Part shown: piece by piece, positions 44,559 to 63,996 of the stretch
Numbering within the stretch: the stretch's first letter is position 1
Layout: every line of letters begins with the position of its first letter
DNA from: Rhodanobacter humi
GTDB taxonomy: Bacteria > Pseudomonadota > Gammaproteobacteria > Xanthomonadales > Rhodanobacteraceae
Assembly: GCF_041107455.1 (NCBI RefSeq)
Contig: NZ_JBGBPY010000001.1
Coordinates: 1,674,001 to 1,738,000 of the forward strand
DNA length: 64,000 nt
Direction of reading: 5' to 3'
Program-made: the position numbers and the translations under genes
Notes under the pieces: model-generated
Databases searched by the model: none
Told to the model about the DNA's origin: nothing
What the model saw: the letters and a program-made list of their open reading frames with translations, nothing else

Positions 44559-44607
44559 CGGTCGTCGTGCCTTGCGATCAGGGCCGAGAGGCCGAAATCG
44601 CGGCCCC

Positions 44608-46870: not shown

Positions 46871-48070
46871 ATGAACCGTTCACTTGGACGTTTGCTGCAT
46901 GCCGCGGCGCCGCTCGCCTTCATGCTTGCCGCTTCGGTCGGCGTCGCCCATGCGGACCAGGCCGCACCGGCATTGCCGCAGATGGGCTTCAACAACTGGA
47001 ATTCCACGCACTGCCGCGACGAATTCAACGAGGCCATGATCCGCGGCGTCGCCGACAAATTCATCAGTTTGGGCCTGAAGGACGCCGGCTACCAATACGT
47101 CAACATCGACGACTGCTGGGCCTACTGGAAGCGCGGCAAGGACGGCCGCCTGCAAGCCAATCCCAAGCGCTTCCCCAGCGGCATCAAGGCGCTGGCCGAC
47201 TACATCCACCAGCGCGGCCTCAAGTTCGGCCTGTATTCCAGTGCCGGCACCTCGACCTGCGAGCCACTCGAAGAGAATCGTGGCTTTCCGGGCGGCCTCG
47301 GCCATGAAAAGCAGGATGCGGCGACATTCGCCTCGTGGGGCGTGGACTACCTGAAGTACGACAACTGCAACAACCAGAAGATCGACGCCCGCAAGCGCTA
47401 CGCGGCCATGGCCGAGGCCCTGCGCGCCACGGGCCGGCCCATCTTCTTCGCCGTGTGCGAATGGGGCGAGAACAAGCCGTGGCTGTGGGCAGGCAAACCG
47501 CCGGTCGACGCCGGCTCCTGGCGTACCACCGGGGACATCAGCGACAACTACGCCTCCATGCTGAAGATCTTCAAGGAGAACGTGGTGCTGGATGCCTATG
47601 CCAGCCCGGGCCACTGGAACGATCCGGACATGCTCGAAGTCGGCAACGGCGGCATGACCGACACCGAATACCGCAGCCATTTCAGCCTGTGGGCCATCAT
47701 GGCCGCCCCGCTGCTGATCGGCACCGACCTGCGCACGATCAAGCCGGACGCGCTGCAGATCCTGCTCAACAAGGAAGTCATCGCGGTGGACCAGGACCCG
47801 CTTGGCGTGCAGGGCAAGCAAGTGAGCGATGCAAATGGCATCCACGTGATCGTCAAGCCGCTCAAGGACGGCAGCCGGGCCGTGGCCGTGTTCAATGAAA
47901 CCGGCGCCACCCGCCCCGCTGTCGTCGCCGCCGCCGAGCTGGGCCTGAAAGGTGGCGCCAGCTACGAGGTGCGGGACCTGTGGGCGCATACGCAGGTGAA
48001 AGGCGACGGCTCGCTCAAGGTGACATTGCCGGCGCACGCCACCGCGATGTACCGCATCAGCAACGACTGA
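46871..48070 (+). CDS. Secreted GH27 alpha-galactosidase
   Basis: It releases terminal alpha-galactose from galactosides and galactan side chains. The 399-residue product has a signal peptide (LAFMLAASVGVAHA). The GH27 core follows: LPQMGFNNWNSTHC, YQYVNIDDCW, KFGLYSSAGTSTC, nucleophile D164 in YLKYDNCNN, CEWGENKPW, and acid/base D222 in SWRTTGDI. A C-terminal beta domain ends with PAHATAMYRISND. The ATG at 46871 has an AGGAGAG Shine-Dalgarno; longer in-frame ORFs lack one. The palindrome at 46733 suggests control by the GntR regulator encoded next. Confidence 0.95.
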   Translation: MNRSLGRLLHAAAPLAFMLAASVGVAHADQAAPALPQMGFNNWNSTHCRDEFNEAMIRGVADKFISLGLKDAGYQYVNIDDCWAYWKRGKDGRLQANPKRFPSGIKALADYIHQRGLKFGLYSSAGTSTCEPLEENRGFPGGLGHEKQDAATFASWGVDYLKYDNCNNQKIDARKRYAAMAEALRATGRPIFFAVCEWGENKPWLWAGKPPVDAGSWRTTGDISDNYASMLKIFKENVVLDAYASPGHWNDPDMLEVGNGGMTDTEYRSHFSLWAIMAAPLLIGTDLRTIKPDALQILLNKEVIAVDQDPLGVQGKQVSDANGIHVIVKPLKDGSRAVAVFNETGATRPAVVAAAELGLKGGASYEVRDLWAHTQVKGDGSLKVTLPAHATAMYRISND

Positions 48071-48279
48071 GGATCGGCGGCCCAGCCCCCGTTCTTCCCC
48101 GGACGGGTCCAGGAACGAACGGGCAGGGGGAGGGGCGCGATCGCAAACAGGCTCTCGCCAGGCGCACACAAGGACCGGTATTCACCCATGCCACACGTCG
48201 ATGCGCCAGACTCGATCGCATCCCGGTCGTCATGCAGCCACGGTCATTAGCTGGTAACGCCACGCAAGCAAATTGCTAT

Positions 48280-48292
48280 AAAGTATGACAAT
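48280..48292. promoter_or_regulatory. Candidate GntR operator at the regulator's own promoter
   Basis: On the minus strand the site reads ATTGTCATACTTT, matching the 46733 site at 10 of 13 positions. It overlaps the end of a TATAAA box (48277-48282) upstream of the gntR gene, as expected for autoregulation. ATTGACCCG follows at 48291-48299, a 9-mer also found near the first site (46763-46771). Confidence 0.5.
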
Positions 48293-48340
48293 TGACCCGA
48301 TAACTCCGGGCCACGCAGCGCAACAAGGAGGACAGACACA

Positions 48341-49045
48341 GTGAAGCCCGTCATCGTGCGCAACCTGCATGGCCAGGTAGTCCAGGAGCTGGGCCGGCAG
48401 ATCGTCGGCGGCGAAATCGCCCCCGGCGCAAACCTGCCGCGCGAAGAGCTGCTGGCCGAACGCATGAAGGTCAGCCGCACCGCCCTGCGCGAGGCGATGA
48501 AAGTACTGTCCGCCAAGGGCCTGATCGAGTCGCGCCAGAAGACCGGCACCCGGGTGCGCGACACCATCCACTGGAACCAGCTCGACGCGGACGTGCTGGC
48601 TTGGCGCTGCGCCTCGATGCCCACCGAAGATTTCGTCGAGAAGCTGGTGGAGATGCGCGAGGTGATCGAGCCCGCCGCCGCCGCCGCCGCCGCCCGCCGC
48701 CGCGACGCCGGGCAGCTGGCGCGCATCGAGACCGCCTACGCGGCGATGGCCGCCGCGACCGACCTGGAAGCCTGGTCCACGGCGGATCTGGCCTTCCATG
48801 AGGCCGTGTTGCGTGCCACCAACAACGAGCTGATGACCTCGTTGTTCTCGGTGATCGAAACCGCGCTGGGCGGCTACTTCCAGCTGTCGGCGAGCATCGC
48901 CGGCAACTTCAGCTACTCGCTGCCGCACCACCGGAAGGTGCTCGACGCGATCCGTCGCCGCCAGCCGGAAGTGGCGCGCCAGACGATGCAGAAGATGATC
49001 GCCGATTCGCGCAGCAACATCCGCCGCAACACGAGGAAGGCCTGA
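48341..49045 (+). CDS. GntR/FadR-subfamily transcriptional regulator (DgoR-like)
   Basis: A 234-residue repressor. The N-terminal winged helix has GQVVQELGRQIVGGEIAPGANLPREELLAERMKVSRTALREAMKVL and GLIESRQKTGTRV; the C-terminal FCD ligand domain has EMREVIEPAAAAAAARR, DLAFHEAVLRATNN, LPHHRKVLDAI with His ligands. It starts at GTG with AAGGAGG nine nt upstream. It heads the galactonate operon, the position of dgoR in E. coli, so the effector may be galactonate or a related acid. Three candidate sites in the locus fit its family's operator pattern. Confidence 0.9.
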   Translation: MKPVIVRNLHGQVVQELGRQIVGGEIAPGANLPREELLAERMKVSRTALREAMKVLSAKGLIESRQKTGTRVRDTIHWNQLDADVLAWRCASMPTEDFVEKLVEMREVIEPAAAAAAARRRDAGQLARIETAYAAMAAATDLEAWSTADLAFHEAVLRATNNELMTSLFSVIETALGGYFQLSASIAGNFSYSLPHHRKVLDAIRRRQPEVARQTMQKMIADSRSNIRRNTRKA

Positions 49046-49052
49046 AGGAACC

Positions 49053-49976
49053 ATGGCCGGCCTGATCGGACTCGACTGGGGCACCAGCAGCCTGCGCGCC
49101 TACCGCTACGACGGCACGGGCCGCATCGCGGAGACGCGCGCACGTCCCTGGGGCATCCGCCAGTTGCCGGCCGGCGGTTACGACGCCGCGCTGGCCGACA
49201 TCACCGCCGGCTGGCCGGCGCTGCCGCGGCTGGCCTGCGGCATGGTCGGCAGCCGCGGCGGCTGGCGCGAGGCGCCCTACCTCGACCTGCCCGCCGACGT
49301 GGCGCGCCTCGGTGACGCGCTCGCCGGCCTGCGCGCCGCCGACGGCATGGACGTCCATCTGGTGCCCGGCCTGCGCGACCCAGACGGCCCCGACGTGATG
49401 CGCGGCGAGGAAACCCAGTTGCTCGGCGCGCTGGCGCTGCAACCGGAACTCGCCGCGGCCTCGTCCTTCATCCTGCCCGGCACGCACAGCAAATGGGCCG
49501 TGGTACGCGACGGCGCCGTGTGCGGCTTCCGCACCCGGATGACCGGCGAACTGTTCGCGGTGCTGCGCCAGCACTCGATCCTCGGCGCCACCGGCGTCGA
49601 GGCCGACGACGACGACGCTGCCTTCGAACGCGGCGTCGCCGCGGCGCGCGACAGCGGCGCGGCCGGCGCACTGGGCCGGCTGTTCTCCGCCCGCGCGCTG
49701 ATGCTGGACGGCGCCCTGGCGCCCGCGTCCGTGTCCGACTACCTCTCCGGCCTGCTGGTCGGCGAGGAATTCCGCGCCGCGCTGGCCGACGGCCTCGCCC
49801 GCCGCGATACGCCGCTGCAGCTGATCGGCGACGCGGCGCTGTGCGAACGCTACCGCCGCGCCGCCGCGCTGTTCGATATCGACCTGCCGCCGCCCGTGCA
49901 GGACGCCGCCGCCCGCGGCCTGTGGCGGATCGCCGTGCAGGCCGGCATCGTCTCCGAGGAAATCCACGCATGCTGA
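49053..49976 (+). CDS. dgoK: 2-dehydro-3-deoxygalactonokinase
   Basis: It phosphorylates 2-keto-3-deoxygalactonate (KDGal) with ATP. The 307-residue product begins MAGLIGLDWGTSSLRAYRYD, the DgoK phosphate-1 motif, then GMVGSRGGWREAPY, a central FILPGTHSKWAVVRDGAV segment with the second phosphate motif, and GLLVGEEFRAAL. The length and motifs match DgoK. It begins 7 nt after the regulator stop and overlaps dgoA by seven bases. Confidence 0.94.
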   Translation: MAGLIGLDWGTSSLRAYRYDGTGRIAETRARPWGIRQLPAGGYDAALADITAGWPALPRLACGMVGSRGGWREAPYLDLPADVARLGDALAGLRAADGMDVHLVPGLRDPDGPDVMRGEETQLLGALALQPELAAASSFILPGTHSKWAVVRDGAVCGFRTRMTGELFAVLRQHSILGATGVEADDDDAAFERGVAAARDSGAAGALGRLFSARALMLDGALAPASVSDYLSGLLVGEEFRAALADGLARRDTPLQLIGDAALCERYRRAAALFDIDLPPPVQDAAARGLWRIAVQAGIVSEEIHAC

Positions 49977-50599
49977 CCCCCTGGCTCAAGCCGCTGCCGC
50001 TGGTGGCGATCCTGCGCGGCCTCACGCCCGACGAGGCGGTGGCCACCGGCCACGCCATCGTCGAGGCCGGCTTCCGCATGCTCGAAGTGCCGCTGAACTC
50101 GCCACGGCCGATCGACAGCATCGCCAGGCTCGCCAAGGCGCTGGGTCCCGACGTGCTGGTGGGCGCGGGCACCGTGATGACGCCGGCCAATGTCGTCGCC
50201 GTGGCCGATGCGGGCGGGCGGCTGATCGTGATGCCGCACGCCGACACCATGGTGATCCGCGCCGCCAAGGCCGCCGGCCTGCTCTGCGTGCCCGGCGTGG
50301 CCACACCCACCGAAGCCTTCGCCGCGCTGGACGCCGGCGCCGACGCGCTGAAGCTGTTCCCCGCCGAGCAGTCCGCACCCGCCGTGCTCAAGGCCTGGCG
50401 CGCGGTGCTGCCGCGCGAGGTGCCCGTCATGCCGGTGGGCGGCATCAGCCCCGACAACATGGCGCCTTGGGTCGCCGCGGGCGCCGCCGGCTTCGGCATC
50501 GGCTCGGCACTGTTCGCGCCGGGTCGCAGTCTCGACGACACGATTCAACGAGCCCGCGCCTTCGCGCAGGCCTGGCATGACTTGGAAACACACGCATGA
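49970..50599 (+). CDS. dgoA: 2-dehydro-3-deoxy-6-phosphogalactonate aldolase
   Basis: It splits KDPGal into pyruvate and glyceraldehyde-3-phosphate. The 209-residue class I aldolase has [18 protein letters not shown] with the catalytic Glu region, [25 protein letters not shown], and the Schiff-base Lys in [11 protein letters not shown], then VGGISPDNM. It is closely parallel to E. coli DgoA (205 residues). The start at 49970 overlaps the end of dgoK, and its stop overlaps dgoD as ATGA. Confidence 0.95.
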
Positions 50600-51744
50600 A
50601 GATCACCAAGCTCACCGTCTACAAGGTGCCGCCGCGCTGGCTGTTCCTGCGCATCGACACCGATGCCGGCATCACGGGCTGGGGCGAGCCGGTGGTGGAA
50701 GGCCGCGCGCACACCGTGGCCGCCGCCGTCGATGAACTGGCCGATTACCTGGTCGGCAAGGACCCGCGCCATATCGAGGATCACTGGAACGTGCTTTACC
50801 GCGGCGGCTTCTACCGTGGCGGCCCGGTGCTGATGAGCGCGATCGCCGGCATCGACCAGGCGCTGTGGGACATCAAGGGCAAGGATCTCGGCCGGCCGGT
50901 GTACGAGCTGCTGGGCGGGCCGGTGCGCGAGCGCATCCGCGTGTACTCGTGGATCGGCGGCGACCGTCCCGCCGACACGGCCAAGGCGGCGCAGGACGCG
51001 GTGGCGCGCGGCTTCACTGCGGTGAAGATGAACGCCACCGAGGAAATGCAATACGTCGACACGCACGCCAAGGTCGAACGCGTACTGGAAAACGTGCAAG
51101 CGATCCGCGACGCGGTGGGCCCGGACATCGGCATCGGCGTGGACTTCCACGGCCGCGTGCACAAGCCGATGGCCAAGGTGCTGATGCGTGAGCTGGCACC
51201 GTTCAAGCTGATGTTCATCGAGGAACCGGTGCTGTCCGAATACCTGGAATGCATTCCGGAACTCGCCGCGATCTCGCCGGCGCCGATCGCGCTGGGCGAA
51301 CGCCTGTACTCGCGCTGGGATTTCAAGCGCGTGCTGCAGACCGGCGGCGTGGACATCATCCAGCCCGACCCCTCGCACGCCGGCGGCATCACCGAGACGC
51401 GCAAGATTGCCGCGATGGCCGAAGCCTACGACGTGGCGCTGGCGCTGCACTGCCCGCTGGGGCCCATCGCGCTGGCCGCGAACCTGCAGCTGGACGCGGT
51501 GTGCCACAACGCCTTCATCCAGGAGCAGAGCCTGGGCATCCACTACAACACCGGCAACGACCTGCTCGACTACATCACCGACCGCAATGTGTTCGCCTAC
51601 GCCGACGGCTACGTGGCGATGCCGAAGGGCCCGGGCCTTGGGATCGAGGTGAACGAGGCCTACGTGGCCGAGCGCGCCAAGGTGGGCCACCAGTGGCACA
51701 ACCCGGTCTGGCGCCACGACGACGGCAGCGTGGCGGAATGGTGA
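50596..51744 (+). CDS. dgoD: D-galactonate dehydratase
   Basis: It dehydrates D-galactonate to KDGal. The 382-residue enolase-superfamily member has [23 protein letters not shown] at the start, a capping domain with [27 protein letters not shown], metal ligands Asp in [12 protein letters not shown], Glu in MFIEEPVL and Glu in [13 protein letters not shown], and His in [17 protein letters not shown]. The close match to E. coli DgoD motifs supports galactonate as substrate. It is the centre of the De Ley-Doudoroff route encoded here. Confidence 0.96.
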
Positions 51745-52517
51745 GCGCGATGGCCGACCGCTACGCCAGCTATCCCAGCCTGCGCGATCGCAGCGTGCTG
51801 ATCAGCGGCGGCGCCACCGGCATCGGCGCCGCCTTCGTCGAGCACTTCGCGCGACAAGGCGCGAAGGTGGCCTTCCTCGACGTGGACGAGGCTGGCGCGC
51901 AAGCGCTGCTGGCGACGCTGAATGATGTGGCACATACGCCGCACTTCCTGCCCTGCGACGTCACCGATCTGGCTGCGCTGCAACGCGCGATCGTCGAAGC
52001 ACGCGAACACCTCGGCCCCATCGCGGTGCTGGTCAACAACGCCGCCAACGACGTGCGCCACGCGCTGGCCGACGTGGACGCCGCCGCATTCGAGCGCAAC
52101 GTGGCGGTGAACCTGCGCCATCAGGTGTTCGCCACCCGCGCGGTGATTCCCGACATGCAACGGCTCGGCGGCGGCGCCATCATCTGCCTCGGCTCCACGG
52201 GCTGGATGAAGAAGAACGCCGGCTATCCGCTGTACGCGATGGCCAAGGCCGCGGTGCACGGCTTCGTCAACGGCATGGCGCGTGAGCTGGGCCAGCAGCA
52301 CATCCGCATCAACGCGCTGGTACCCGGCTGGGTAATCACAGAAAAGCAGCGCGCGCTGTGGCTGGACGCCGAAGGCGAGGCCGAGATCGCGCGCGTGCAA
52401 TGCCTGCCCGGCTACCTGATGGCCGAGGACCTGGCGCGCATGGCGCTGTTCCTCGCCGCCGACGACAGCCGCATGTGCACCGGCCAGGATTTCATCGTCG
52501 ACGGCGGCTGGGTATGA
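51738..52517 (+). CDS. SDR-family sugar dehydrogenase (probable galactose 1-dehydrogenase)
   Basis: This short-chain dehydrogenase probably oxidises D-galactose at C1 to galactonolactone. The roughly 259-residue product has the cofactor loop [19 protein letters not shown] with an Asp after the second strand (FLDVDE, NAD-type), NNAAN, the catalytic Ser in LGSTGWM and [11 protein letters not shown] with Tyr and Lys. SDRs of this type also oxidise L-arabinose, so substrate is inferred from the operon. Possible starts are ATG 51738, GTG 51741 and ATG 51750; the first two overlap the dgoD stop. Confidence 0.88.
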
Positions 52518-53428
52518 ACGCGCCATCCGCTCCCATGCAGGTCATCGTGGAAGCGGGCAACGTGCTGGGCGAAGGCATCGTCTGGTGTGAACGTGCGCAG
52601 GCGCTGTACTGGACCGACATCCATGCCGCCACGCTGTGGCGGCACGTGCCCGTCAGCGGCGAAACGAAACAGTGGCGATTGCCCGAGCGACTCGCCTCGT
52701 TTGCGCTCTGCGAAACGGACGGCTGGCTGCTGCTGGCGCTGGCCTCGCGACTGGCGTTCTTCAGGCTCGCCGACGGCGCGCTGCACACATTGTGCGAGGT
52801 GGAACCGGAACTCCCCACGCGCTGCAACGACGGCGCCTGCGACCGCCAGGGCCGCTTCGTGTTCGGCACCCTGCACGAGCCCGTCGACGGTGGCGTGAAG
52901 CAGGCCATAGCCGGCTTCTGGCGCCTGGACGCCGGGCTCCGGCTGGAGAAGCTGCCGCTGGAAGGCGTGGCGATCAGCAACAGTCTCGCCTTCAGCCCCG
53001 ATGGCAGCACGCTGTACTACTGCGATTCGCTGACGCGCACGATCCGCTGTTGCACCTACGGCGACACGCTCGGCCCCTCGCGCCTGTTCGCCGACCTGCG
53101 CGACGCGACGGGCGAACCGGACGGCTCCTGCGTCGACGCCGAGGGCGGGCTGTGGAATGCGCAATGGGGTTCGGGTCGCGTGGTGCGCTATCGCACCGAC
53201 GGTGGCATCGACCGCATCCTGCCGGTGCCGGCCAGCCAGCCCACCCGCCCCGCCTTCGGCGGCGCCGCGCTGGACACGCTCTACGTCACCAGCGCCCGCG
53301 ACGGTCTCGACGCTGCCACACTGGCGCGCGAGCCGCTGGCCGGCGCGCTGTTCGGCACGCGCGTCGGGGTGCGCGGCGTGCCGGAGCCACGCTTTGCCGG
53401 CACGCCGCCTGCGGGCGGTGCGCCATGA
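52514..53428 (+). CDS. SMP-30/gluconolactonase-like sugar lactonase
   Basis: This predicted calcium-dependent lactonase would open galactono-1,4- or 1,5-lactone to galactonate. The 304-residue beta-propeller has GEGIVWCERAQALYWTDIH with the first metal-ligand Glu, LPTRCNDGACDRQGRFVFGT, SNSLAFSPDGSTLYYCDS and EPDGSCVDAEGGLWNAQWG, all SMP-30 motifs. No signal peptide. The start overlaps the dehydrogenase stop as ATGA, placing it right after the enzyme whose product it would use. Confidence 0.92.
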   Translation: MNAPSAPMQVIVEAGNVLGEGIVWCERAQALYWTDIHAATLWRHVPVSGETKQWRLPERLASFALCETDGWLLLALASRLAFFRLADGALHTLCEVEPELPTRCNDGACDRQGRFVFGTLHEPVDGGVKQAIAGFWRLDAGLRLEKLPLEGVAISNSLAFSPDGSTLYYCDSLTRTIRCCTYGDTLGPSRLFADLRDATGEPDGSCVDAEGGLWNAQWGSGRVVRYRTDGGIDRILPVPASQPTRPAFGGAALDTLYVTSARDGLDAATLAREPLAGALFGTRVGVRGVPEPRFAGTPPAGGAP

Positions 53429-53466
53429 ACACGGTCGATGCCCATGGAGGGTCTGGAGAAAACGTA

Positions 53467-53523
53467 TCGCGGCTGTAGCCGCTCCGACGGTCCGATACGG
53501 TGTAGGAGCGGCTTCAGCCGCGA
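53467..53523. repeat. Inverted pair of REP-like elements, second copy
   Basis: The left unit (53467-53487) is the inverse of GTAGGAGCGGCTTCAGCC at 53502-53523, with one A/T change in the loop. It is the same family as 31858-31917. It separates the lactonase stop from the transporter gene, where it may modulate read-through from the dgo operon. Confidence 0.8.
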
Positions 53524-53575
53524 CGGTTGTCCATCCAGCAACACCGCACGCACGCCATTCCACGGGGAGAGACTC

Positions 53576-54967
53576 ATGAGCGCCACCACCGCACCACCCG
53601 CCGCCACGCACGGCAAGGCCACCGCCGTGTTCACCTGCATCCTGGCCGCGCTGGCCGGCCTGATGTTCGGCCTCGACATCGGCGTGATCTCCGGCGCGCA
53701 GCAATTCCTGCAGAAGGATTTCGGCATCGGCGACGACATGCTCGGATGGATCGTCAGCATCATGATGCTGGGCGCCGCACTGGGCGCGCTGGTGGCGGGC
53801 TGGCTGTCCAGCCAGCTGGGCCGCAAACGCACGCTGATCCTCGGTGCCGTGCTGTTCGTGGGCGGCTCGGTGCTGTGCGGCCTGGCCTGGACACCGCACG
53901 TGCTGATCGTCGGCCGCCTCGTGCTCGGCCTGGCGATCGGCCTCGCCAGCTTCACCGCACCGCTGTACCTGGCCGAGATCGCTCCGGAATCGATCCGCGG
54001 CGCGATGATCTCGCTGTACCAGCTGATGATCACCATCGGCATCCTGGTCGCCTTCCTCTCCGACACCGCCTTCAGCTACTCGGGCAACTGGCGCTGGATG
54101 CTGGGCGTGATCGCGATCCCCGGCGCGCTGTTCCTGCTCGGCGTGGCCTTCCTGCCGGAAAGCCCGCGCTGGCTGATGATGAAGGGTCGCCAGCCGGAGG
54201 CCGAGCAAGTGCTGCGCAAGCTGCTCGGCAGCAGCGGCGCCATCGCCAAGGAAATCGGCGAGATCAGCGAACAGCTGAAGACGCCGCAACGCGGCTGGCA
54301 TCTCTTCCAGCAGAACCGCAACTTCCGCCGCTCGGTGGGCTTGGGTGTGCTGCTGCAGATCATGCAGCAGCTCACCGGCATGAACGTGGTGATGTACTAC
54401 GCGCCGCGCATCTTCCAGGACATGGGCTACAACACCGAATCGCAGATGTGGTTCACCGCGATAGTGGGCCTGGTCAACGTGCTGGCCACCTTCATCGCGA
54501 TCGGCCTGGTCGACAAACTGGGCCGCAAGCCGATCCTGTACATCGGCTTCGTGGTGATGGCGATCGGCCTCGGCGTGGTCGGCACGATGATGCACCTGGG
54601 CATCCACAGCCACGGCGAACAGACCTTCACCGTGGTCATGCTGCTGGTCTTCATCGTCGGCTTCGCGATGTCGGCCGGCCCGCTGATCTGGACGCTGTGC
54701 TCGGAGATCCAGCCGCTCAAGGGCCGCGACTTCGGCATCGGCTGCTCCACCTTCACCAACTGGGTGGCGAACTGGCTGGTGGGCCTTTCGTTCCTGCCAC
54801 TGCTCAACGGCATCGGCCAGGCCGAGACGTTCTGGCTGTACGCCGCGTTCAACGTGGTGTTCATCGCGTTCACGATCTGGCTGGTGCCGGAAACCAAGGG
54901 CGTCACGCTGGAACAGATCGAGCGCAAGCTGATGGCGGGCCAGCCGCTGCGGCGGATCGGGCAGTGA
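53576..54967 (+). CDS. MFS sugar/proton symporter (sugar porter family)
   Basis: An inner-membrane carrier of 463 residues and about 12 helices, close in motif content to GalP/AraE. It has LAGLMFGLDIGVISGAQQF, GRKRTLILG, the RLVLGLAIGLAS segment followed by PLYLAEIAPESIRGAM, PESPRWLMMKGR, QQLTGMNVVMYYAPRIFQ, a second GRKPILYIGF and VPETKGVTLEQIERKL. It likely imports galactose or arabinose from the periplasm. The ATG has GGGGAGA five nt upstream. It follows the lactonase gene after a REP pair and may be read from the same operon. Confidence 0.94.
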   Translation: MSATTAPPAATHGKATAVFTCILAALAGLMFGLDIGVISGAQQFLQKDFGIGDDMLGWIVSIMMLGAALGALVAGWLSSQLGRKRTLILGAVLFVGGSVLCGLAWTPHVLIVGRLVLGLAIGLASFTAPLYLAEIAPESIRGAMISLYQLMITIGILVAFLSDTAFSYSGNWRWMLGVIAIPGALFLLGVAFLPESPRWLMMKGRQPEAEQVLRKLLGSSGAIAKEIGEISEQLKTPQRGWHLFQQNRNFRRSVGLGVLLQIMQQLTGMNVVMYYAPRIFQDMGYNTESQMWFTAIVGLVNVLATFIAIGLVDKLGRKPILYIGFVVMAIGLGVVGTMMHLGIHSHGEQTFTVVMLLVFIVGFAMSAGPLIWTLCSEIQPLKGRDFGIGCSTFTNWVANWLVGLSFLPLLNGIGQAETFWLYAAFNVVFIAFTIWLVPETKGVTLEQIERKLMAGQPLRRIGQ

Positions 54968-55415: not shown

Positions 55416-55731
55416 TAATATTTAATGGCGAGCAGACGGCCCATGGAAACCACCCGCCGCAACGGGACAGCCGGAGGACCGATTTGCTTCGCTGCCGGTG
55501 CCTGCCTGGCGTTCGGCGGCATGGTGGACTTGGACCGCAGGTTCGACGAGCGGCTGCACACGCACCGTTTCGGCATGCAGCGTCGGCGCCCATCGCTTGT
55601 GCATGTGTTGACGCGCACACGCATCCATCGGCGCACGCCAGGGGGGATGCAGCCTGCAGGAAGCCGGGCCCCAGGGGCAAGGACGACGGCGCACGCCAGG
55701 CTTTTTTGATCACGATATGGGGAGAATCGCA

Positions 55732-58584
55732 ATGAATCATCGTCCATGGGCCAAGCTCCTGCTGGCCGCTAGCGGCCTCACGTTCGCAGCCGCCATGCCC
55801 ACCGACGTGCGCGCCGAAACCACGGCATCCACCCCGGCGGATCACCGCATCAGCTTCGACCAGTACAGCTTCCTCATCGACGGCAAGCGCACCTATATCT
55901 GGTCGGGTGAAGTCCACCCCTATCGCCTGCCCAGCCCCGATCTATGGCCGGACGTCTTCCAGAAGATGAAGGCGGCCGGGTTCAACACCGCATCGATCTA
56001 TTTCTCCTGGGGCTATCACTCGCCGCGCGACGGCCAGTACGACTTCAGCGGCATCCGCAACGTCGACAAGCTGCTCGACGACGCGCGTGATGCCGGCATC
56101 TACGTGATCGCCCGCCCGGGCCCCTACATCAACGCCGAGGTCGACAGCGGCGGGTTCCCGTTGTGGATGACCGAAAAGCCAGTCAAGAACCGCAGCCCCG
56201 ATCCCGCCTACCTCAAGCTGGCCGACCAGTGGATGACGCAGATCGACCGCGTCCTCGCCCGCCACCAGCTCACCAACGGGCGCGGCACGGTGATCGCCTA
56301 CCAAGTCGAGAACGAGTACTACAACGGCTCGCCTGCAGGCCGCGACTACATGCAGCACCTCGAGGACAAGGCGCGCGCCGACGGCATCACCGTCCCGCTG
56401 GTTGGCAACCACGACGCGACCTTCGTCAGCGGCAAGGGCGCGGTGCAGGTCAGTGGTTCGGATTATTACCCGCAAGGCTTCGACTGCTCGCATCCGACGC
56501 AATGGAAGCCCGCCCCGGACTTGGCCGCAAATCACTTCGCCGGCGAACCGCTGTTCACCGCCGAATTCCAAGGTGGCGCATTCGATCCCTGGGGCGGCCC
56601 CGGCTACCCCAAGTGCGCGCAGCTGATCAACGACCGCTTCGCCAACGTGTTCTACAAGGAGAACATCGCGGCGGGGGCGACGGCGCAGAACTTCTACATG
56701 CTGTTCGGCGGCACCTCGTGGGGCTGGCAGGCGATCCCGCAGAACTACACCTCCTACGATTACGGCGCCGCGATCACCGAAGCCCGCCAGTTCGACCCCA
56801 AGTACTACGAGGACAAGCGGATCGGCTATTTCCTCCACGCGGTCGCGCCGATCACCAAGACCGATGCGCTGGCGCCCGACCGACTCGACAACCCGGTTCT
56901 CGTCGACCGCGCGCGGATCAATCCGGATACGGGCACGCAATTCCATCTCGTCCGCCACGGCGATACCACCGCGTCGACCGTCGAAACCACGCATCTCTCG
57001 CTGGCGCTGAAGGAAGGCAAGTTCGACATCCCGCAGCAGCCCGGCACCGCCATCGCCATCGACGGGCGCGACAGCAAGTTGCTGCTGGCCGACTACATGC
57101 TTGGCACAACGCGCATGGACTATTCGACCTCCGAGCTGATGACGAACGCTGCGATAGGCGGCCGCGACATCGCCGTGCTTTACGGTCGCCACGGCAGCGA
57201 CGGCGAAACCCTGCTCGACTACGCCGCCAAGCCGAAGGTGACGGTGCTGTCCGGCAACGTGACGCAGCATTGGGGCAAGGACGGCCTGCGGCTGGACTAC
57301 CGGCATGACGGCCTGGCGCGCGTGCTGGTCGACGGCGGCCAGCGGCCGCTGCTGCTGCTGATCGGCGACGACCAGGCCACGCAACGCGTCTGGCGACAGG
57401 ACACACCGCAGGGTGCCGTGTTGCTGCTCGGCTCGCACCTGCTGCGCAGCGCGCACTACACCGACGGCACGCTGGCATTGACCGGCGATGGCGACAGCGA
57501 TGCCAACGCGGAATTGTTCGCCGGCGACGCGACCAAGGTGACCTGGAACGGCCAGCCGCTCGCCGCCGCACACACTGCTTCGGGCAGCTTGGCCGTGAGC
57601 CTGCCGGTACCGCAACCGGTCACGCTACCGCAGCTCGATCACTGGACGCAGCGCGCCGGCGCACCGGAGATCGCCCGTGGCTTCAACGACTCTCAATGGC
57701 GCGTCGCCAACCGCACCACCACCAGCAGCGTCACCAAGCCCGGCACGCTGCCGGTACTGTTCGCCGACGATTACGGTTTCCATACTGGCAACACCTGGTA
57801 TCGCGGCCACTTCACCGTCGATGCCACTCACACCGCCCCCACGGGCCTCAAGCTCGCGGTGAAGAGTGGCGGCGTCGCGGGCGCCTTCTCGGTGTGGTTC
57901 AACGGGCACTTCCTCGGCAGCGTGACACGCAACGAGCTCGGCGCGTTCGGCTTCCCCTCCGCGATGCTGGTGCCGGGCGACAACGTCGTCTCGGTCCTGA
58001 CCGTCGACATGGGCCACGAGGAGGACTACAACTCCACCGGCGAGAACCGCACCGCGCGCGGCATCGTCTCGGCCGAGCCGCTCGGCGCCGACGCCAAGGC
58101 GATCACCTGGCGCCTGCAGGGCGCGCTCGTCGACGAGAGCCCGCAACGCGGCCCGTACAACTTCGGTGGTCTGTATGGCGAGCGTCAGGGCTGGCCGCTC
58201 AAGCCCGGCCCTGCCGCGGACTGGCAGTCCGCGACCCTGCCGTCGGACTCCGCCCAGCCCGGCGTGACGTGGTACCGCACGAACATCCAGCTCAGCCTGC
58301 CCAAGGGCCAGGACACGTCGCTGGGACTGGAGATCACGGATCCGCCGGGTCGGCATTACCGCGCGACGATCTTCGTCAACGGCTGGCAGATGGGCAACTA
58401 CGTGGCCGAGCTCGGCCCGCAGCATCGCTTCCCGATTCCCAACGGCGTGATCGACCCGCACGGCAACAACGACATCACCATCGCCGTCTGGAAGACCGAC
58501 GCCACACCCGGTGGCCTCGGCACCGTCTCGCTCATCAATTTCGGTTCGTACACGTCGCCGGTCGATGTCGGGGCGATCCGGTAA
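55732..58584 (+). CDS. Secreted GH35 beta-galactosidase
   Basis: It removes terminal beta-galactose from galactans or galacto-oligosaccharides. The 950-residue protein begins with a signal peptide (LLLAASGLTFAAAMPTDVRA). The catalytic barrel has IWSGEVHPYRLPSPDLW, FSWGYHSPRDGQYDF, YVIARPGPYINAEVDSGGFPLWM, acid/base E195 in AYQVENEYYNG and nucleophile E278 in FTAEFQGGAFDPWGG. C-terminal jelly-roll domains complete the large GH35 architecture. GGGGAGA precedes the ATG. The GH51 gene follows after 9 nt. Confidence 0.95.
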   Translation: MNHRPWAKLLLAASGLTFAAAMPTDVRAETTASTPADHRISFDQYSFLIDGKRTYIWSGEVHPYRLPSPDLWPDVFQKMKAAGFNTASIYFSWGYHSPRDGQYDFSGIRNVDKLLDDARDAGIYVIARPGPYINAEVDSGGFPLWMTEKPVKNRSPDPAYLKLADQWMTQIDRVLARHQLTNGRGTVIAYQVENEYYNGSPAGRDYMQHLEDKARADGITVPLVGNHDATFVSGKGAVQVSGSDYYPQGFDCSHPTQWKPAPDLAANHFAGEPLFTAEFQGGAFDPWGGPGYPKCAQLINDRFANVFYKENIAAGATAQNFYMLFGGTSWGWQAIPQNYTSYDYGAAITEARQFDPKYYEDKRIGYFLHAVAPITKTDALAPDRLDNPVLVDRARINPDTGTQFHLVRHGDTTASTVETTHLSLALKEGKFDIPQQPGTAIAIDGRDSKLLLADYMLGTTRMDYSTSELMTNAAIGGRDIAVLYGRHGSDGETLLDYAAKPKVTVLSGNVTQHWGKDGLRLDYRHDGLARVLVDGGQRPLLLLIGDDQATQRVWRQDTPQGAVLLLGSHLLRSAHYTDGTLALTGDGDSDANAELFAGDATKVTWNGQPLAAAHTASGSLAVSLPVPQPVTLPQLDHWTQRAGAPEIARGFNDSQWRVANRTTTSSVTKPGTLPVLFADDYGFHTGNTWYRGHFTVDATHTAPTGLKLAVKSGGVAGAFSVWFNGHFLGSVTRNELGAFGFPSAMLVPGDNVVSVLTVDMGHEEDYNSTGENRTARGIVSAEPLGADAKAITWRLQGALVDESPQRGPYNFGGLYGERQGWPLKPGPAADWQSATLPSDSAQPGVTWYRTNIQLSLPKGQDTSLGLEITDPPGRHYRATIFVNGWQMGNYVAELGPQHRFPIPNGVIDPHGNNDITIAVWKTDATPGGLGTVSLINFGSYTSPVDVGAIR

Positions 58585-58593
58585 AGGGATGAC

Positions 58594-60180
58594 ATGTCTC
58601 GACCGCAGTCTCTGAAGGCGAACAACAGCACGCAACGAGCGCTTCTAGCCGCGCTCGCGACCGTCGCCCTGTGCGGGTCGGCGGTCGCGCAGCGCGCGCC
58701 GGCCAATGTCAGGCTGACCATCGACCTGAACCACCCCGGCCCGGTGATCGCGCCGGCAGTCGAAGGCCAGTTCGCCGAGAACCTCGGCCGCGGCATCTAC
58801 GACGGCATCTGGGTCGGGCATCATTCGTCGATCCCCAACCGCAACGGCTATCGCACCGACGTGATGGATGCGCTGAAGGCGCTGCACGTGCCCGTGATCC
58901 GCTGGCCCGGCGGCTGCTTCGCCGACACTTACGACTGGCGCGACGGCGTCGGTCCGGACGCCGGGCGGCCCAGGGGAATCAACACCAACTGGGGCGGCGT
59001 CACCGACGACAACAGCTTCGGCACCAACGAGTTCATGGACTACTCCGTGGCGTTGGGCGCGGACGCCTATGTCTCGCTCAACCTGGGCTCGCTACCGGCT
59101 TACGATGCACGGCAGTGGGTGCAGTACATGACCGCCGGCGGCGATTCCGCACTCGCGCAGGAGCGGCGCACCAACGGTCGCGACAAGCCATGGACCAACC
59201 TGAAGTATGTCGGCTACGGCAACGAACTTTGGGGCTGCGGCGGCAACATGACCGCCGACTACGCCGCCAGCCTGTTCAAACGCTACGCCACGTTCGTGAA
59301 CCCGGCGCCGGGCGCGCCCGACTTCGTCAAGATCGCCTCGGGCCCCAACGAAGCCGACTACGCCTGGACCGACACGATGATGCGCGGCGCGGCCAGGCAG
59401 ATGGGTGCCATCAGCCTGCACTACTACACCATCCCGGGCCCCTCCTGGGAGCACAAGGGATCCGCGACCGGCTTCAGCAAGGACGAATGGGCGACGACGC
59501 TGAGCAAGGCGCGCTACATCGACACACTGATCGCCAAGCATTCGGCGATCATGGACAAGTACGACCCGGGCAAGAAAGTCGCGCTCGACGTCGACGAGTG
59601 GGGCACCTGGTACGACCAGGCGCCCGGCAGCCATCCCGGCTTCCTCTACCAGCAGAACACGTTGCGCGACGCCGAGGTGGCGGCGCTGACGCTGGACGTC
59701 TTCTTCCGCCATACCGACCGGGTGAAGCTCGCGACGATCGCGCAGATGGTCAACGTGCTGCAGGCCATGGTGCTCACCGATGGCGACAGGATGCTGTTGA
59801 CGCCCACCTACCACGTCTTCCACATGTACGTGCCGTTCCAGGGCGCCACGCCCTACCCGGCGACGGTCAGCGGGCCCGATTACGTGGAAGGCAAGCACCG
59901 GCTGCCGATGGTCGATGCATCGGTCGCGCGCGGCACCGACGGCAGACTCTATCTCGCGCTGGTCAACCTCGATCCAGATCGCGGCGCGCATGTCGAGACC
60001 GGGCTGAACGGCACCGCCAGCGGTCAGATCCTGAGCGGACCGAAGATGGACAGCCACAACACGTTCGCGGCGCCGGACACGATTCATCCGGTCGCCTATG
60101 CCGGCCAGGCAGAGCACGGCAGCCTAGCTTTTGAATTGCCGGCCAAGTCGATCGCGGTCGTCGCCGTGGATGAGCCATAG
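58594..60180 (+). CDS. Secreted GH51-type alpha-L-arabinofuranosidase
   Basis: It trims alpha-L-arabinofuranose side chains from arabinogalactan or arabinan. The 528-residue product has a signal peptide (ALLAALATVALCGSAVAQ), the segment VEGQFAENLGRGIYDGIWVG, PVIRWPGGCFADTYDWRDGVGP, acid/base E211 in GYGNELWGCGG, HYYTIPGP and nucleophile E335 in LDVDEWGTWY. The C-terminal beta domain includes LTPTYHVFHMY. It shares an operon with GH35, supporting a galactose-plus-arabinose polymer as target. Confidence 0.94.
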   Translation: MSRPQSLKANNSTQRALLAALATVALCGSAVAQRAPANVRLTIDLNHPGPVIAPAVEGQFAENLGRGIYDGIWVGHHSSIPNRNGYRTDVMDALKALHVPVIRWPGGCFADTYDWRDGVGPDAGRPRGINTNWGGVTDDNSFGTNEFMDYSVALGADAYVSLNLGSLPAYDARQWVQYMTAGGDSALAQERRTNGRDKPWTNLKYVGYGNELWGCGGNMTADYAASLFKRYATFVNPAPGAPDFVKIASGPNEADYAWTDTMMRGAARQMGAISLHYYTIPGPSWEHKGSATGFSKDEWATTLSKARYIDTLIAKHSAIMDKYDPGKKVALDVDEWGTWYDQAPGSHPGFLYQQNTLRDAEVAALTLDVFFRHTDRVKLATIAQMVNVLQAMVLTDGDRMLLTPTYHVFHMYVPFQGATPYPATVSGPDYVEGKHRLPMVDASVARGTDGRLYLALVNLDPDRGAHVETGLNGTASGQILSGPKMDSHNTFAAPDTIHPVAYAGQAEHGSLAFELPAKSIAVVAVDEP

Positions 60181-60527
60181 CCATTGCAACGAGGTGTGCC
60201 CGGCTCGACGCCGGCACCTCGATGGGATGGCGCTGCAGCTCGCCACAGGCACGGTAATGCCGGGCACGCGCGGCGCGCCGTGATCCTTCGAGACCTGACC
60301 GTTCGGTGTCATGCCGCCCTCGTCACCACGGCTTCGCGCATGTCGTCACGGCATGCGCCTCGTCTCCCCATGGACCAGCAATTCGCAGGCTAGAAGTGCC
60401 GCCGACGAACCTGTTCAGCCGACCCGCATGCAAGCCGGCCCCGCCACCGGCGGCGCACCTCCCGATCGCGGACCGGGACGCGCTTCCTCATTCATTCGAT
60501 GCCCTGAGGAAATCGCACAGGGCGTTC
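60181..60527. other. Intergenic stretch after GH51
   Basis: This is the first part of a 612-nt gap. An imperfect hairpin (60191-60220, GAGGTG with CACCTC and GGC with GCC) just past the GH51 stop may terminate the GH35-GH51 transcript, though it has no T-tract. No convincing ORF or RNA was recognised in the remainder, including 60571-60792. Confidence 0.35.
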
Positions 60528-60556
60528 TTGACATACCCTCAAAAGAGGTATAAACG
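60528..60556 (+). promoter_or_regulatory. Candidate promoter of the second TonB receptor
   Basis: Consensus TTGACA (60528-60533) is followed by TATAAA (60549-60554, 15-nt spacer) or TAAACG (60551-60556, 17-nt spacer). The spacer contains an imperfect inverted repeat (TACCCTC-AAAA-GAGGTA). The ATG is about 237 nt downstream, giving a long leader. Confidence 0.5.
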
Positions 60557-60557
60557 T

Positions 60558-60570
60558 AATATACTACAAT
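60558..60570. promoter_or_regulatory. Candidate GntR operator at the second TonB receptor promoter
   Basis: On the minus strand the site reads ATTGTAGTATATT, 10 of 13 identical to ATTGTCGTACAAT at 46733. It lies directly after the predicted -10, where bound repressor would block initiation. Confidence 0.45.
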
Positions 60571-60792
60571 ATGTGTAGATGACCTTCACAGCTGCGCTGA
60601 CGCCATGACGCCGAGTTGGTTTGCCGCGTTTTGCATGTGGATGTCATTGATGGCGTTGTCCGCGGGGACGGATGGCGCGCATGGCACGGATGGATCCGGT
60701 GCGACTGGCTTCTTGCCGTAATGCGGGGTTCGTCCGCGGCAGCAGTAACGCAGCCCCGCAACAAACCATGACATTCACGTGGGAGGGAGAAA

Positions 60793-63700
60793 ATGCAGCA
60801 GAAGTTCTTGGCGTACTCCGTACGCAATGCGTTGCTTGCCGTTGTCGGAACGACGCTGGCTCTGGCCGCAGGTGCGGCCTGCGCAGGTACGCCGGCGGCA
60901 ACCGGCGGCACCGTGCCCGCAGCCATCACGACCAGTGGCCCGGCGGCAACGACGCCCACACCGCAAGACGACACCATGGCAAAGAAGCAAGAGAACAAAA
61001 AGGCCGCGGTTCAACTGCAGGGGGTCACGGTGTCAGCGGGCATCCAGGCTTCGCAACAACGCTCCATCGACATCAAGCGGAACGCCCCCAACATCGAAGA
61101 CAGCATTACGGCCGTCAACATCGGCGAACTGCCGGATGTATCGATCACCGACTCGTTGCAGCGCCTGACCGGCGTACAGATCGACCGCTCGGCGGGCGAA
61201 GGCACCAGCCTCAGCGTGCGCGGCCTGCCGGAAGTGGGCACGACCCTCAACGGCCTGCCGTTCATCACCGCCGACAACATCGATTCCATCCAACCCAACT
61301 ACGGCACGCTCCCCGCCGCCATGTTCAGTGGAGTGGACGTGTTCAAGTCGCCCACCGCGAGCATGCTTGATTCGGGCATCTCCGGCACCGTCAATCTGCG
61401 GACGTATCAACCGTTCGATTTCAATCCCGGCTGGTCCGTCACGGCATCCGCCGAGGGCGCGCGCGGCAGCGTCACCAAGAAGAACGGACCCACTGTCGAC
61501 ACCACCATCAATTTCAACGACGGCGGCATATGGGGCGCGCTGCTGTCGGCCTCGTATTCGGATCTCACGCGAAACAACAGTTCCAACGGGTTTTACGATG
61601 GTGGCCGCATCGGCGGCGAAAACGCCTCCGACGCAAACAATACGGCGAACAACGGCTTCATCTCCGGCTGGGGTTCGGTGCCGGTGCCGCCGAGCATCGT
61701 GCAATTGCCGGACGGCAGCGTGGAGGTGGGCGGCATCAGGAATGCCGCGTTCATGATACCCGGCGACGGCGCCATGACCGCCAACGACGCGAGCATGCAG
61801 CGCAAGCGCCTGGGCCTGCATATGGCGTTTGCCGCCAGCCTGGGCGACAGCTTTCTGCTCAACGTGGACGGCTTCTACACCCACCAGAAGCAGGACTCCT
61901 ACGACGTCAACACCGTCCCGGAGGGGCTGAACCACAACGTGGCCACGCTCATCCCGACCGCGGCGCGCGGCACCGGGATCGACTTCATCAACCCGACGGG
62001 ACCGACCGGCACCCAGGCGGGCGACTGGAACCAGCAGTTCTACACGGTCCAGAGTTTCGACTACTACCTGGGCGGCTTCCGCAGCGCGTCCACGGCGACA
62101 CAAACGACATCCACAGCACGCAATTTCACCGCGAAGCTGACGTACGACAACGGCGGTCCGTTCACCGCGCATCTGGCTCTCGCTGACAACACCGCGACGA
62201 GCGAAAACTCCTATGCGGACATCCAGTTCGTCCAGGACGACGGAACGGCGTGGGGCAACCACCTGATGCCTGGCGTGACGCTGCCCCCCGGCTACTATCC
62301 CGGCCCGACCGGAAGTTACCCGTTCAACCCCGCCGGCATGGTGCCGGGGTCCGAGGTGGTCGGCATCAACATGCGCAGCGACCAGCCCCTCTCCGTTTCG
62401 CCTGGGTTGGCGGCGCGACTCACTGATCCCAGTACCTTCGTCAACAAGGGCTTCGACTCCAGTGGCGGCAACCAGGCGGCAGGCAACTTCTACGCACAGC
62501 TCGACGGGGCGTTCGAGTTCAATCCGGATCTGACCGTCAAGGCCGGCGTTTCCAACAGCGTGCGCAGCGCCAACAACGACTCCTGGGTCGGTCTGACTCC
62601 GCTCTATGCGGGCAACGGGGCCAGCGACCCGAATGGCTGCCTGGTGCGCTGGGTGTACGCGGACCAGATTCTGGATGGCGGTGGCGTACCCGGCGCCTGC
62701 ACCGCCGGCAACGCCGTCGGTTACTTCCACGGCAATCCGCTGGGCAACGCAACTCTTTCCGACCTGCCGGCCTCGATCAGCGATCACCTGCACACTTACA
62801 ACCTGGGCGGCGTATCCATCGTGGGACTGGACCCGCACGCGATGTCGGATCCCGTCGCCTTCATCAACTCGCTGGCGCCTGGCCTGCAGCACGGCGCGGA
62901 TCCCACGGCGAACTGGAACGTGTCGCTCCACACGGTCAAGGCATTCGGTGAGGCGGCATTCGGCGGCACTCTCGGTGGCGTGCCGTTCGACGGCAACTTC
63001 GGCATGCGTTACGTCCACATGAACCTGGGGGTGACCCAGTACCTGTCGGGATCGGCGGCGGCGTACGGCGCGATGGCGCCGGCCGGCGGCTCGGTCATGT
63101 CAAACAACAGCCATGACTATTGGCTGCCCGCATTGAATTTCGCGGTACACATGACACCCTCCCTGACGTGGCGTTTCGCCATGTCCAAGAACATGATGCC
63201 GTTGACCCTGGACCAGTGGGGCGGCGGCATTTCGGAGAGCTTCGAGGCGGTGGCGATCACGCTGCCGAACGGCCAACACGTGCTCCCCGTCAGCGGCGCG
63301 TCGTCCAACGGCAACCCCGACCTGAAGCCGTGGCAATCCACCAATTACGACACCTCGCTGGAGTACTACTTCAACGAAGGCAGCATGGTGAGCCTCGCCC
63401 TGTTCAACATGAGAATCGCAAGCTTCGTGCAAAACAGCGGCACCGTGCAATGCAATCTGCCGGATGCCGACGGTGTCGTCCGCGATCGCTGCGTTCCGGT
63501 ATCCACCCTGGTGCAGGGCGAAGGCGCCCAACTGCATGGCGTCGAGGCGGACTACAAGCAGGCGTTCACTTTCCTGCCCGGGCTGCTGTCGCACACCGGC
63601 GTGGAGATCAACGGCACCTACAGCCCGAGCACGACCGGCAAGCGGGATCTGGCGGGCAATTCGGTGCCCTTCCCCGGCAACTCGGAAAAATCGGGCAACT

Positions 63701-63996
63701 TCATCGTCTGGTACCAGGACGATCACTGGCAGGCGCGACTGGCCTTGAACTACCGCAGCAAGGAGTTGGTCAGCACCAATTGGCTTGGCGTGACGGGCTT
63801 CGACGAATACGCCATGCCGCAGACGTACCTGGCCGCCAGCGTGACGTACAAGGTGAACAAGCACCTGCAGCTCTATGCCCAGGGACAAAACCTGACCAAC
63901 GAGAAACAGAAGTACTACCTCACCTGGCCCGATCAGCTGGTCTCGACGAACTTCTCCGAGCGGTATGTGATGCTTGGTGCACGCGTCCACTTCTGA
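60793..63996 (+). CDS. Large TonB-dependent receptor, glycan-uptake type
   Basis: A 1067-residue outer-membrane receptor, complete in the window. After a signal sequence (VGTTLALAAGAACAG) and a Thr/Ala/Pro-rich spacer it has a TonB-box-like LQGVTVSA. The plug contains IKRNAPNIEDSITAVNIGEL, RLTGVQIDRSAGEGTSLSVRG and GVDVFKSPTASMLDSGISGTVNLRT. The long beta barrel ends in the classical C-terminal Phe (MLGARVHF). GGGAGGGAG lies just before the ATG. The plug belongs to the same Xanthomonas/Caulobacter carbohydrate group as the receptor at 41409-44354 but the two differ clearly, so they may take up different fragments. Confidence 0.93.
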   Translation: MQQKFLAYSVRNALLAVVGTTLALAAGAACAGTPAATGGTVPAAITTSGPAATTPTPQDDTMAKKQENKKAAVQLQGVTVSAGIQASQQRSIDIKRNAPNIEDSITAVNIGELPDVSITDSLQRLTGVQIDRSAGEGTSLSVRGLPEVGTTLNGLPFITADNIDSIQPNYGTLPAAMFSGVDVFKSPTASMLDSGISGTVNLRTYQPFDFNPGWSVTASAEGARGSVTKKNGPTVDTTINFNDGGIWGALLSASYSDLTRNNSSNGFYDGGRIGGENASDANNTANNGFISGWGSVPVPPSIVQLPDGSVEVGGIRNAAFMIPGDGAMTANDASMQRKRLGLHMAFAASLGDSFLLNVDGFYTHQKQDSYDVNTVPEGLNHNVATLIPTAARGTGIDFINPTGPTGTQAGDWNQQFYTVQSFDYYLGGFRSASTATQTTSTARNFTAKLTYDNGGPFTAHLALADNTATSENSYADIQFVQDDGTAWGNHLMPGVTLPPGYYPGPTGSYPFNPAGMVPGSEVVGINMRSDQPLSVSPGLAARLTDPSTFVNKGFDSSGGNQAAGNFYAQLDGAFEFNPDLTVKAGVSNSVRSANNDSWVGLTPLYAGNGASDPNGCLVRWVYADQILDGGGVPGACTAGNAVGYFHGNPLGNATLSDLPASISDHLHTYNLGGVSIVGLDPHAMSDPVAFINSLAPGLQHGADPTANWNVSLHTVKAFGEAAFGGTLGGVPFDGNFGMRYVHMNLGVTQYLSGSAAAYGAMAPAGGSVMSNNSHDYWLPALNFAVHMTPSLTWRFAMSKNMMPLTLDQWGGGISESFEAVAITLPNGQHVLPVSGASSNGNPDLKPWQSTNYDTSLEYYFNEGSMVSLALFNMRIASFVQNSGTVQCNLPDADGVVRDRCVPVSTLVQGEGAQLHGVEADYKQAFTFLPGLLSHTGVEINGTYSPSTTGKRDLAGNSVPFPGNSEKSGNFIVWYQDDHWQARLALNYRSKELVSTNWLGVTGFDEYAMPQTYLAASVTYKVNKHLQLYAQGQNLTNEKQKYYLTWPDQLVSTNFSERYVMLGARVHF

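Follow-up and report, generated by a model that had tools for sequence, protein, structure and literature searches.

The window analyzed here, a 64,000-nucleotide stretch of the Rhodanobacter humi genome (contig NZ_JBGBPY010000001.1, positions 1,674,001 to 1,738,000), contains 11 identified genes between 46868 and 63996, all on the + strand, in which predicted galactosidases and a TonB-dependent receptor flank a dgo operon for oxidation of galactose by the De Ley-Doudoroff route (Table 1). Ten of the proteins were searched with NCBIfam and Pfam models, and the receptor was searched separately with both. The searches confirmed the single-strand gene list of an earlier sequence-only reading, namely, a glycoside hydrolase family 27 (GH27) protein, a regulator, dgoK-dgoA-dgoD, a short-chain dehydrogenase/reductase (SDR), a lactonase, a major facilitator superfamily (MFS) porter, GH35, GH51, and the receptor. 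From dgoK through dgoA, dgoD, and the SDR gene to the lactonase gene there is a 4-bp overlap at each junction, while 7 bp separate the regulator from dgoK and 9 bp separate GH35 from GH51. Longer gaps lie upstream of the regulator (270 bp), the MFS gene (144 bp), GH35 (749 bp), and the receptor (612 bp), and a sigma-70 promoter scan returned zero sites versus 1.9 expected. By eye, signal-like leaders were present on GH27, GH35, and GH51 and absent from dgoK, the SDR, and the lactonase. Since the receptor is followed on its 3' side by a gene remnant and then by an IMS-family (dinB-like) gene, the locus ends at the window edge. With a TonB receptor, glycosidases, an inner-membrane porter, and a regulator together, it has the content of a carbohydrate utilization locus with a TonB-dependent transporter (CUT locus).

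Table 1. Genes and operator-like sites of the galactoside locus (window coordinates)
Feature	Position	Strand	Basis
Operator-like site, GH27 promoter	46730..46748		Perfect TTGT-N3-ACAA core; best site of the window; 1/2000 local shuffles
GH27 alpha-galactosidase, predicted exported	46868-48070	+	Pfam Melibiase_2, 260 bits; signal-like leader by eye
Operator-like site, regulator/dgo promoter	48277..48295		Imperfect left half; second or third best in window; 3/2000 local shuffles
DgoR-like GntR/FCD regulator	48341-49045	+	Pfam GntR and FCD; 36% over 218 aa versus E. coli DgoR
dgoK, 2-keto-3-deoxy-galactonokinase	49053-49976	+	Pfam DGOK, 300 bits; 36% versus E. coli DgoK
dgoA, 2-dehydro-3-deoxy-6-phosphogalactonate aldolase	49973-50599	+	NCBIfam PRK09140, 296 bits (cutoff 207); 49% versus E. 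coli DgoA
dgoD, galactonate dehydratase	50596-51744	+	NCBIfam equivalog, 695 bits (cutoff 311); 59% versus E. coli DgoD
SDR, probable galactose 1-dehydrogenase	51741-52517	+	XylB-type model, 305 bits (cutoff 400); operon position
SMP-30-type sugar lactonase	52514-53428	+	Pfam SGL, 242 bits; nearest solved structure 7plb
MFS sugar porter (start codon uncertain)	about 53573-54967	+	TIGR00879, 446 bits (cutoff 238)
GH35 beta-galactosidase, predicted exported	55717-58584	+	Pfam, 295 bits; BetaGal domains 2, 3 and ABD2; nearest solved structure beta-galactosidase A
GH51 arabinofuranosidase, predicted exported, probable duplicate	58594-60180	+	Nearest solved structure 6d25, 582 bits; in Pfam, C-terminal arabinofuranosidase domain only
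Operator-like site, receptor promoter (weaker)	60555..60573		Fourth with family matrix, second with genus regulator matrix; 90/2000 local shuffles
TonB-dependent receptor	60793-63996	+	TIGR01782, 490 bits (cutoff 310); Plug and barrel domains

The lower part of the De Ley-Doudoroff route (galactonate dehydratase, 2-keto-3-deoxygalactonate kinase, and 2-keto-3-deoxy-6-phosphogalactonate aldolase) is present, with DgoD and DgoA over their cutoffs alongside the DGOK match, and DgoD is the one copy above cutoff in the genome. The order regulator-K-A-D is that of dgoRKADT in Escherichia coli K-12, whose products are 36, 36, 49, and 59% identical to those of the locus. The two differ in their starting point: E. 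coli takes up galactonate via DgoT, whereas the locus, with its SDR, lactonase, and sugar porter, would start from galactose. The SDR appears to be the least certain enzyme call of the pathway, its nearest solved structures being unnamed SDRs and a sulfoquinovose dehydrogenase. The lactonase was assigned to the SGL family only, and 7plb is a xylonolactonase according to the available text of PMC9795676. Operon position suggests a galactose 1-dehydrogenase role for the SDR; the galactose-type substrates of the lactonase and porter are putative.

The R. humi genome (4.15 Mb, 99.94% complete) gave no match to PF01087 (GalT), PF10509 (galactokinase), or PF02610 (AraA), families detected in 6, 10, and 5 of 14 control genomes, respectively; other galactose routes were not searched. 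Oxidation therefore looks like the main galactose route of this genome. Together with the family assignments and the linking operator-like sites described below, this upholds the earlier view that galactoside trimming and import genes stand beside a complete-looking De Ley-Doudoroff set.

For arabinose, use either elsewhere or via a promiscuous SDR had been proposed, and it is the first of these that the genome favors. The region at C1:835-875 kb carries genes for xylose isomerase, xylulokinase, GH43, GH31, GH51, GH27, three GH29, and GH42 proteins, a LysR gene, and a propeller protein taken by eye as GH74. Beside this second GH51, at C1:852-863 kb, lie SDR, arabinonate-dehydratase-like, AraD1-family, and semialdehyde-dehydrogenase-like genes. 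The IlvD-type dehydratase reached 855 of 882 bits for L-arabinonate dehydratase (943 versus 539 for the broader subfamily), the AraD1 protein reached 379 bits versus a cutoff of 340, and the dehydrogenase, at 491 of 770 bits, approached the alpha-ketoglutaric-semialdehyde models. These matches point to a group of genes, lying about 0.86 Mb away from the window, that could plausibly serve oxidative L-arabinose catabolism, and with such a set elsewhere in the genome a promiscuous SDR becomes unnecessary. GamR is the LysR galactose regulator of Xanthomonas; since a LysR gene adjoins the arabinose set, a galactose role for the second region is conceivable, and C1:835-875 kb may have one.

The SDR of the window could still be a dual galactose/arabinose dehydrogenase through which part of the GH51-derived arabinose enters metabolism. 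An SDR of a related kind from Herbaspirillum favors L-arabinose over D-galactose only 2.9-fold, as given in the available text of PMC6336799. We regard this dual role as unlikely, since the downstream enzymes of the window operon are of the galactonate type only and a paralogous SDR, 46 to 55% identical to dgo-type SDRs (53% over 240 residues to that of the window), stands among the arabinose genes.

Among the three glycosidases, the nearest solved structure to GH27 is 1uas, an alpha-galactosidase (393 bits, as opposed to 85 for the GH27 beta-L-arabinopyranosidase). GH35 belongs to the beta-galactosidase A type, its nearest solved structure scoring 526 bits, and the structures nearest to GH51 are arabinofuranosidases. 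The sequence-only reading had taken the three as parts of a self-contained arabinogalactan system. That view was not sustained: no endo-galactanase was found among the ten locus proteins scanned, and the glycosidase/receptor part varies in relatives. Arabinogalactan is therefore just one possible ligand. A dedicated locus for arabinogalactan or pectic side chains, with a receptor importing fragments cut by endo-enzymes encoded elsewhere and the three glycosidases trimming them, is rather doubtful. GH35, GH27, and GH51 enzymes do act on such side chains, and several genus relatives have GH43 and GH93-like exo-arabinanase genes next to the same dgo core. Against it, in addition to the missing endo-galactanase, stand the close relationship of the window GH51 to a copy from a xyloglucan/arabinose region and the distance of the receptor, whose best relative in 147 family genomes (self excluded) is just 49% identical. 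The two GH51 copies, in the window and near C1:852 kb, share 86% protein and 90% DNA identity, and GH51 genes more than 80% identical occur in two others of the 147 genomes, both adjoining xyloglucan/arabinose-type genes. As the close relatives are all found in such regions, the window GH51 would most simply be a duplicate from one of them.

To the left of the locus, a glucosylceramidase-like GH30 gene and a second TonB receptor gene form a separate pair on the - strand (39555-44504), retained next to a ClC gene in some relatives. This GH30/receptor/ClC set (39555-46524, - strand) was considered as the missing endo-galactanase part and rejected, since the solved structures nearest to the GH30 are glucosylceramidases. 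Its two adjoining gaps also held no site, since 730 and 232 shuffles out of 1000 equaled their best scores.

The regulator has the features of DgoR, with GntR and FCD domains and dgo synteny. The E. coli dgo genes and the locus have in common the inverted repeat TTGT-N3-ACAA, published as the E. coli DgoR repeat IR1 (available text of PMC12288454). Relatives were represented by 80 named loci, the best 80 of 222 relatives by SDR similarity, which include Rhodanobacter, Dyella, Frateuria, Stenotrophomonas, and Pseudoxanthomonas; in 66 of them the regulator promoter could be placed. In these and the window, the repeat occurred upstream of the regulator in 26 of 67 promoters versus 0.06 expected from mononucleotide shuffles, the window's own regulator promoter having an imperfect core only. 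A 19-bp family matrix built from the 26 TTGT-N3-ACAA sites of relatives (window excluded) ranked the sites of the window as 46730 (22.7), 48277 (10.4), 35960 (9.1, elsewhere in the window), and 60555 (7.1). With a genus regulator matrix, made from 12 sites before the regulator in other genomes of the genus and again excluding the window, the GH27 (20.6), receptor (15.8), and regulator (15.5) promoters were the top three distinct sites, the next scoring 9.1; among 50 block shuffles the best score was at least 20.6 in none and at least 15.5 in one, and the third-best was at least 15.5 in none. A position before GH35, 55409, also scored with the genus matrices (reached by none of 1000 shuffles when receptor sites were part of the matrix); as it lacked the GT/AC core, it was left out of the count.

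An 18-kb stretch of E. coli served as a control, in which the best site with the family matrix precedes dgoR and includes the core of IR1. Another E. coli site, 21 bp from the first, took fourth place under the family matrix and second place under the genus matrix built with receptor sites included. Because the three promoters top the genus-matrix ranking and a sister matrix finds the E. coli DgoR operator, it is likely that GH27, the dgo operon, and the receptor belong to one DgoR-type regulon, whose effector would be D-galactonate.

Across the genus, 22 stretches totaling 381 kb were scanned with the family matrix at a site threshold of 10 (L136 left out). Thirty sites scored at least 10, comprising 12 before the regulator, 13 before the locus receptor, one in a promoter shared by galM and GH35, and four elsewhere (one distant from a gene start, one intragenic, and two before an unrelated gene). 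The 12 regulator sites are those of the genus regulator matrix, and the 13 receptor sites, two of which are identical in sequence, gave the 12 distinct receptor sites used in the second genus matrix. A receptor-promoter site was present in 8 of the 11 genus stretches with a visible receptor start, and five of these eight carry two sites 16 to 20 bp apart. Five other stretches of the R. humi genome (100 kb) had no site of at least 10 with this matrix. The operator-receptor link is thus clear within the genus and, as detailed below, partial beyond it. The two sites before an unrelated gene of 319 to 343 aa (L130 19914 and L131 1062, in two genus genomes) are possibly a further target or noise.

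The comparison across Rhodanobacteraceae that had been suggested alongside the sequence-only reading came out divided: the dgo core is shared, but the glycosidases and receptor are not fixed and the window's combination was unmatched among the genomes examined. Among the 80 named loci, the regulator was present in 69, dgoK in 64, dgoA in 77, dgoD in 78, the lactonase in 78, the MFS gene in 62, and the SDR in all 80 by construction; all seven occurred together in 53. These counts depend on gene-presence identity cutoffs chosen by us, and full 10-kb flanks were available for 68 of the 80 loci. Within such flanks, GH27 at 70% identity or more was found in 3/80 loci (81 to 84% identity), of which two also have a distant GH35; neither GH35 or GH51 at 50% or more nor a receptor at 45% or more was found in any. 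The apparent absence of GH35 beside the core of relatives is partly an artifact of the 10-kb flanks, since orthologs lie farther from the MFS gene.

Within the genus (15 genomes), dgoD was present in 14, the exception being an 87%-complete genome, and GH35 orthologs were present in four, that of R. humi included. The other three (81 to 85% identity) lie between the MFS and dinB-like genes, 6.2, 8.8, and 10.5 kb after the MFS gene versus 0.75 kb in the window. This interval holds receptor-GH27-GH35 in G117; aldose epimerase, SDR, MFS, GH36, receptor, GH27, GH35, and aldose epimerase in G041; and GH43, GH93-like, receptor, a 341-aa gene, aldose-epimerase-like, and GH35 in G054, the 341-aa gene having no Pfam, NCBIfam, or solved-structure match. 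Ten dgoD-bearing genomes are without GH35. In four of them (G069, G147, G095, and G137), a related receptor is accompanied by GH43 and by GH93-like or BNR proteins, in another three (G106, G022, and G082) a different receptor is accompanied by an MGH1-like glycosidase, and in the remaining three the stretch is ended by contig ends. One protein was tested for the GH93 label and two for the MGH1 label, the others being named by similarity or by eye. None of the other genomes examined showed the glycosidase/receptor combination of the window. In relatives the dgo core is constant, and the glycosidase/receptor part would be an exchangeable addition.

Just right of the window (L005 2307-2865) lie two MGH1-like gene pieces, 76 and 88% identical and in different frames, with the middle gone. 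An MGH1-like glycosidase gene is intact beside dgo in some relatives, and the remnant fits older content having been replaced.

Several further observations concern the core itself. Between window positions 48320 and 54965, identity to the nearest named locus (L009) is patchy, mostly 83 to 96% in 200-bp steps between regulator and lactonase, falling to 70% at the lactonase-MFS gap and reaching 94 to 99% over the MFS gene; a recombination mosaic would give such a pattern. Two Luteibacter loci (L054 and L085) retain the SDR and MFS genes, but none of dgoK, dgoA, dgoD, and the lactonase gene is nearby. In a contig titled Candidatus Eremiobacteraeota (L053), likely a misassigned metagenome contig, the dgo locus shows up to 87% identity to that of the window. 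In G054 (L137, on C14), a lone second dgoD, 92% identical to that of the window, lies near xylose-isomerase-like and kinase-like genes, both labeled by eye.

We propose, with a probability of about 0.72, that the window carries a galactoside CUT locus built around a De Ley-Doudoroff operon, controlled by a DgoR-type regulator, and completed by an exchangeable glycosidase/receptor part. The receptor would bring galactose-containing oligosaccharides into the periplasm, where the exported GH27, GH35, and GH51 would remove alpha-galactose, beta-galactose, and arabinofuranose, respectively. Galactose would enter the cytoplasm through the MFS porter and be converted to D-galactonate by the SDR and lactonase, and DgoD, DgoK, and DgoA would yield pyruvate and glyceraldehyde-3-phosphate. 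Arabinose freed by GH51 would be handled by the separate oxidative set near C1:0.86 Mb. D-Galactonate would release the DgoR-like repressor from GH27, the dgo operon, and the receptor; as galactonate would thereby lift repression of the receptor, a pathway intermediate would turn on import.

A number of results weigh against this proposal. The best model for the SDR is a XylB-type D-xylose dehydrogenase, matched below its cutoff. In 20 whole-window shuffles scored with the family matrix, the mean best score was 9.0 and the highest was 16.2, so that window-wide only 46730 stands out and the regulator and receptor sites are no better than the shuffle bests; the receptor-site score was also met in 90 of 2000 local dinucleotide shuffles. 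No convincing site precedes GH35-GH51, the GH35 promoter score being met in 1283 of 2000 such shuffles. Among the genus relatives, G041 and G117, whose glycosidases are most alike, and G127 have no receptor-promoter site of at least 10. Beyond the genus, a site of at least 12 lay within 600 bp upstream in 14 of 50 loci with a receptor-like open reading frame (from the 80 named loci).

The variable glycosidase/receptor part and the lack of a clear operator before GH35-GH51 would also suit a galactose operon that stands by chance beside separately regulated glycosidase and receptor genes. We consider such a chance arrangement highly improbable, given the operator-like sites in the GH27 and receptor promoters and the recurrence of galactosidases by the core in relatives (GH27 at 81 to 84% identity in 3/80 loci and GH36 in G041).

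The proposed galactoside locus resembles several known systems in part. Marine carrageenan and agar loci reportedly join polysaccharide loci to non-Leloir galactose catabolism. They act on sulfated algal galactans with other enzymes. The available text of PMC5507952 describes Rhodobacteraceae-type isolates in which De Ley-Doudoroff genes accompany an alpha-galactosidase, as well as a Halomonas DgoR regulon. With these the locus shares the joining of oxidative galactose genes to a galactosidase and a likely DgoR regulon with a COG3386 lactonase and a transporter. Transport in that text is by ABC or SSS systems and the alpha-galactosidase is cytoplasmic, whereas the locus has predicted-exported GH27, GH35, and GH51 and a TonB receptor. 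The xyloglucan utilization locus (XyGUL) of Xanthomonas, from the same bacterial order, likewise has a TonB receptor and GH35 in one locus. In the available text of PMC8245568, however, its GH74, GH31, GH95, and pair of receptors adjoin xylose genes, whereas the window combines the dgo operon with GH27 and GH51. Of the XyGUL set, the locus showed GH35 and a single receptor only, and C1:835-875 kb is the more XyGUL-like of the two regions. The locus also departs from E. coli dgo in that its GH27 and TonB receptor appear to share an operator. A search of one open-access literature library returned nothing on Rhodanobacter with galactonate and, for DgoR in connection with TonB-dependent systems, PMC5507952 and a paper about Salmonella in egg white. 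The joining of De Ley-Doudoroff genes to alpha-galactosidase, the Halomonas DgoR regulon, and marine oxidative-galactose polysaccharide loci are already in print.

A broader reading, offered tentatively and at somewhat less than even odds, is that in Rhodanobacter and its relatives the dgo operon is a fixed socket for swapped receptor/glycosidase cassettes serving different galactose-bearing glycans, each wired by a DgoR-type operator before the TonB receptor or an outlying galactosidase, with D-galactonate governing import. Its odds are lowered by the two relatives whose glycosidases are most similar, as neither has the receptor site. The view of arabinose is corrected, in that the genome does appear to hold catabolic genes for the arabinose released here. 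The locus would offer a testable system with a single regulator, a single effector, and three sites on the DNA. If the broader reading is true, the polysaccharide loci of these soil bacteria would evolve by keeping a sugar-burning core and its repressor while the importer and trimming enzymes are swapped and then rewired through a short operator.

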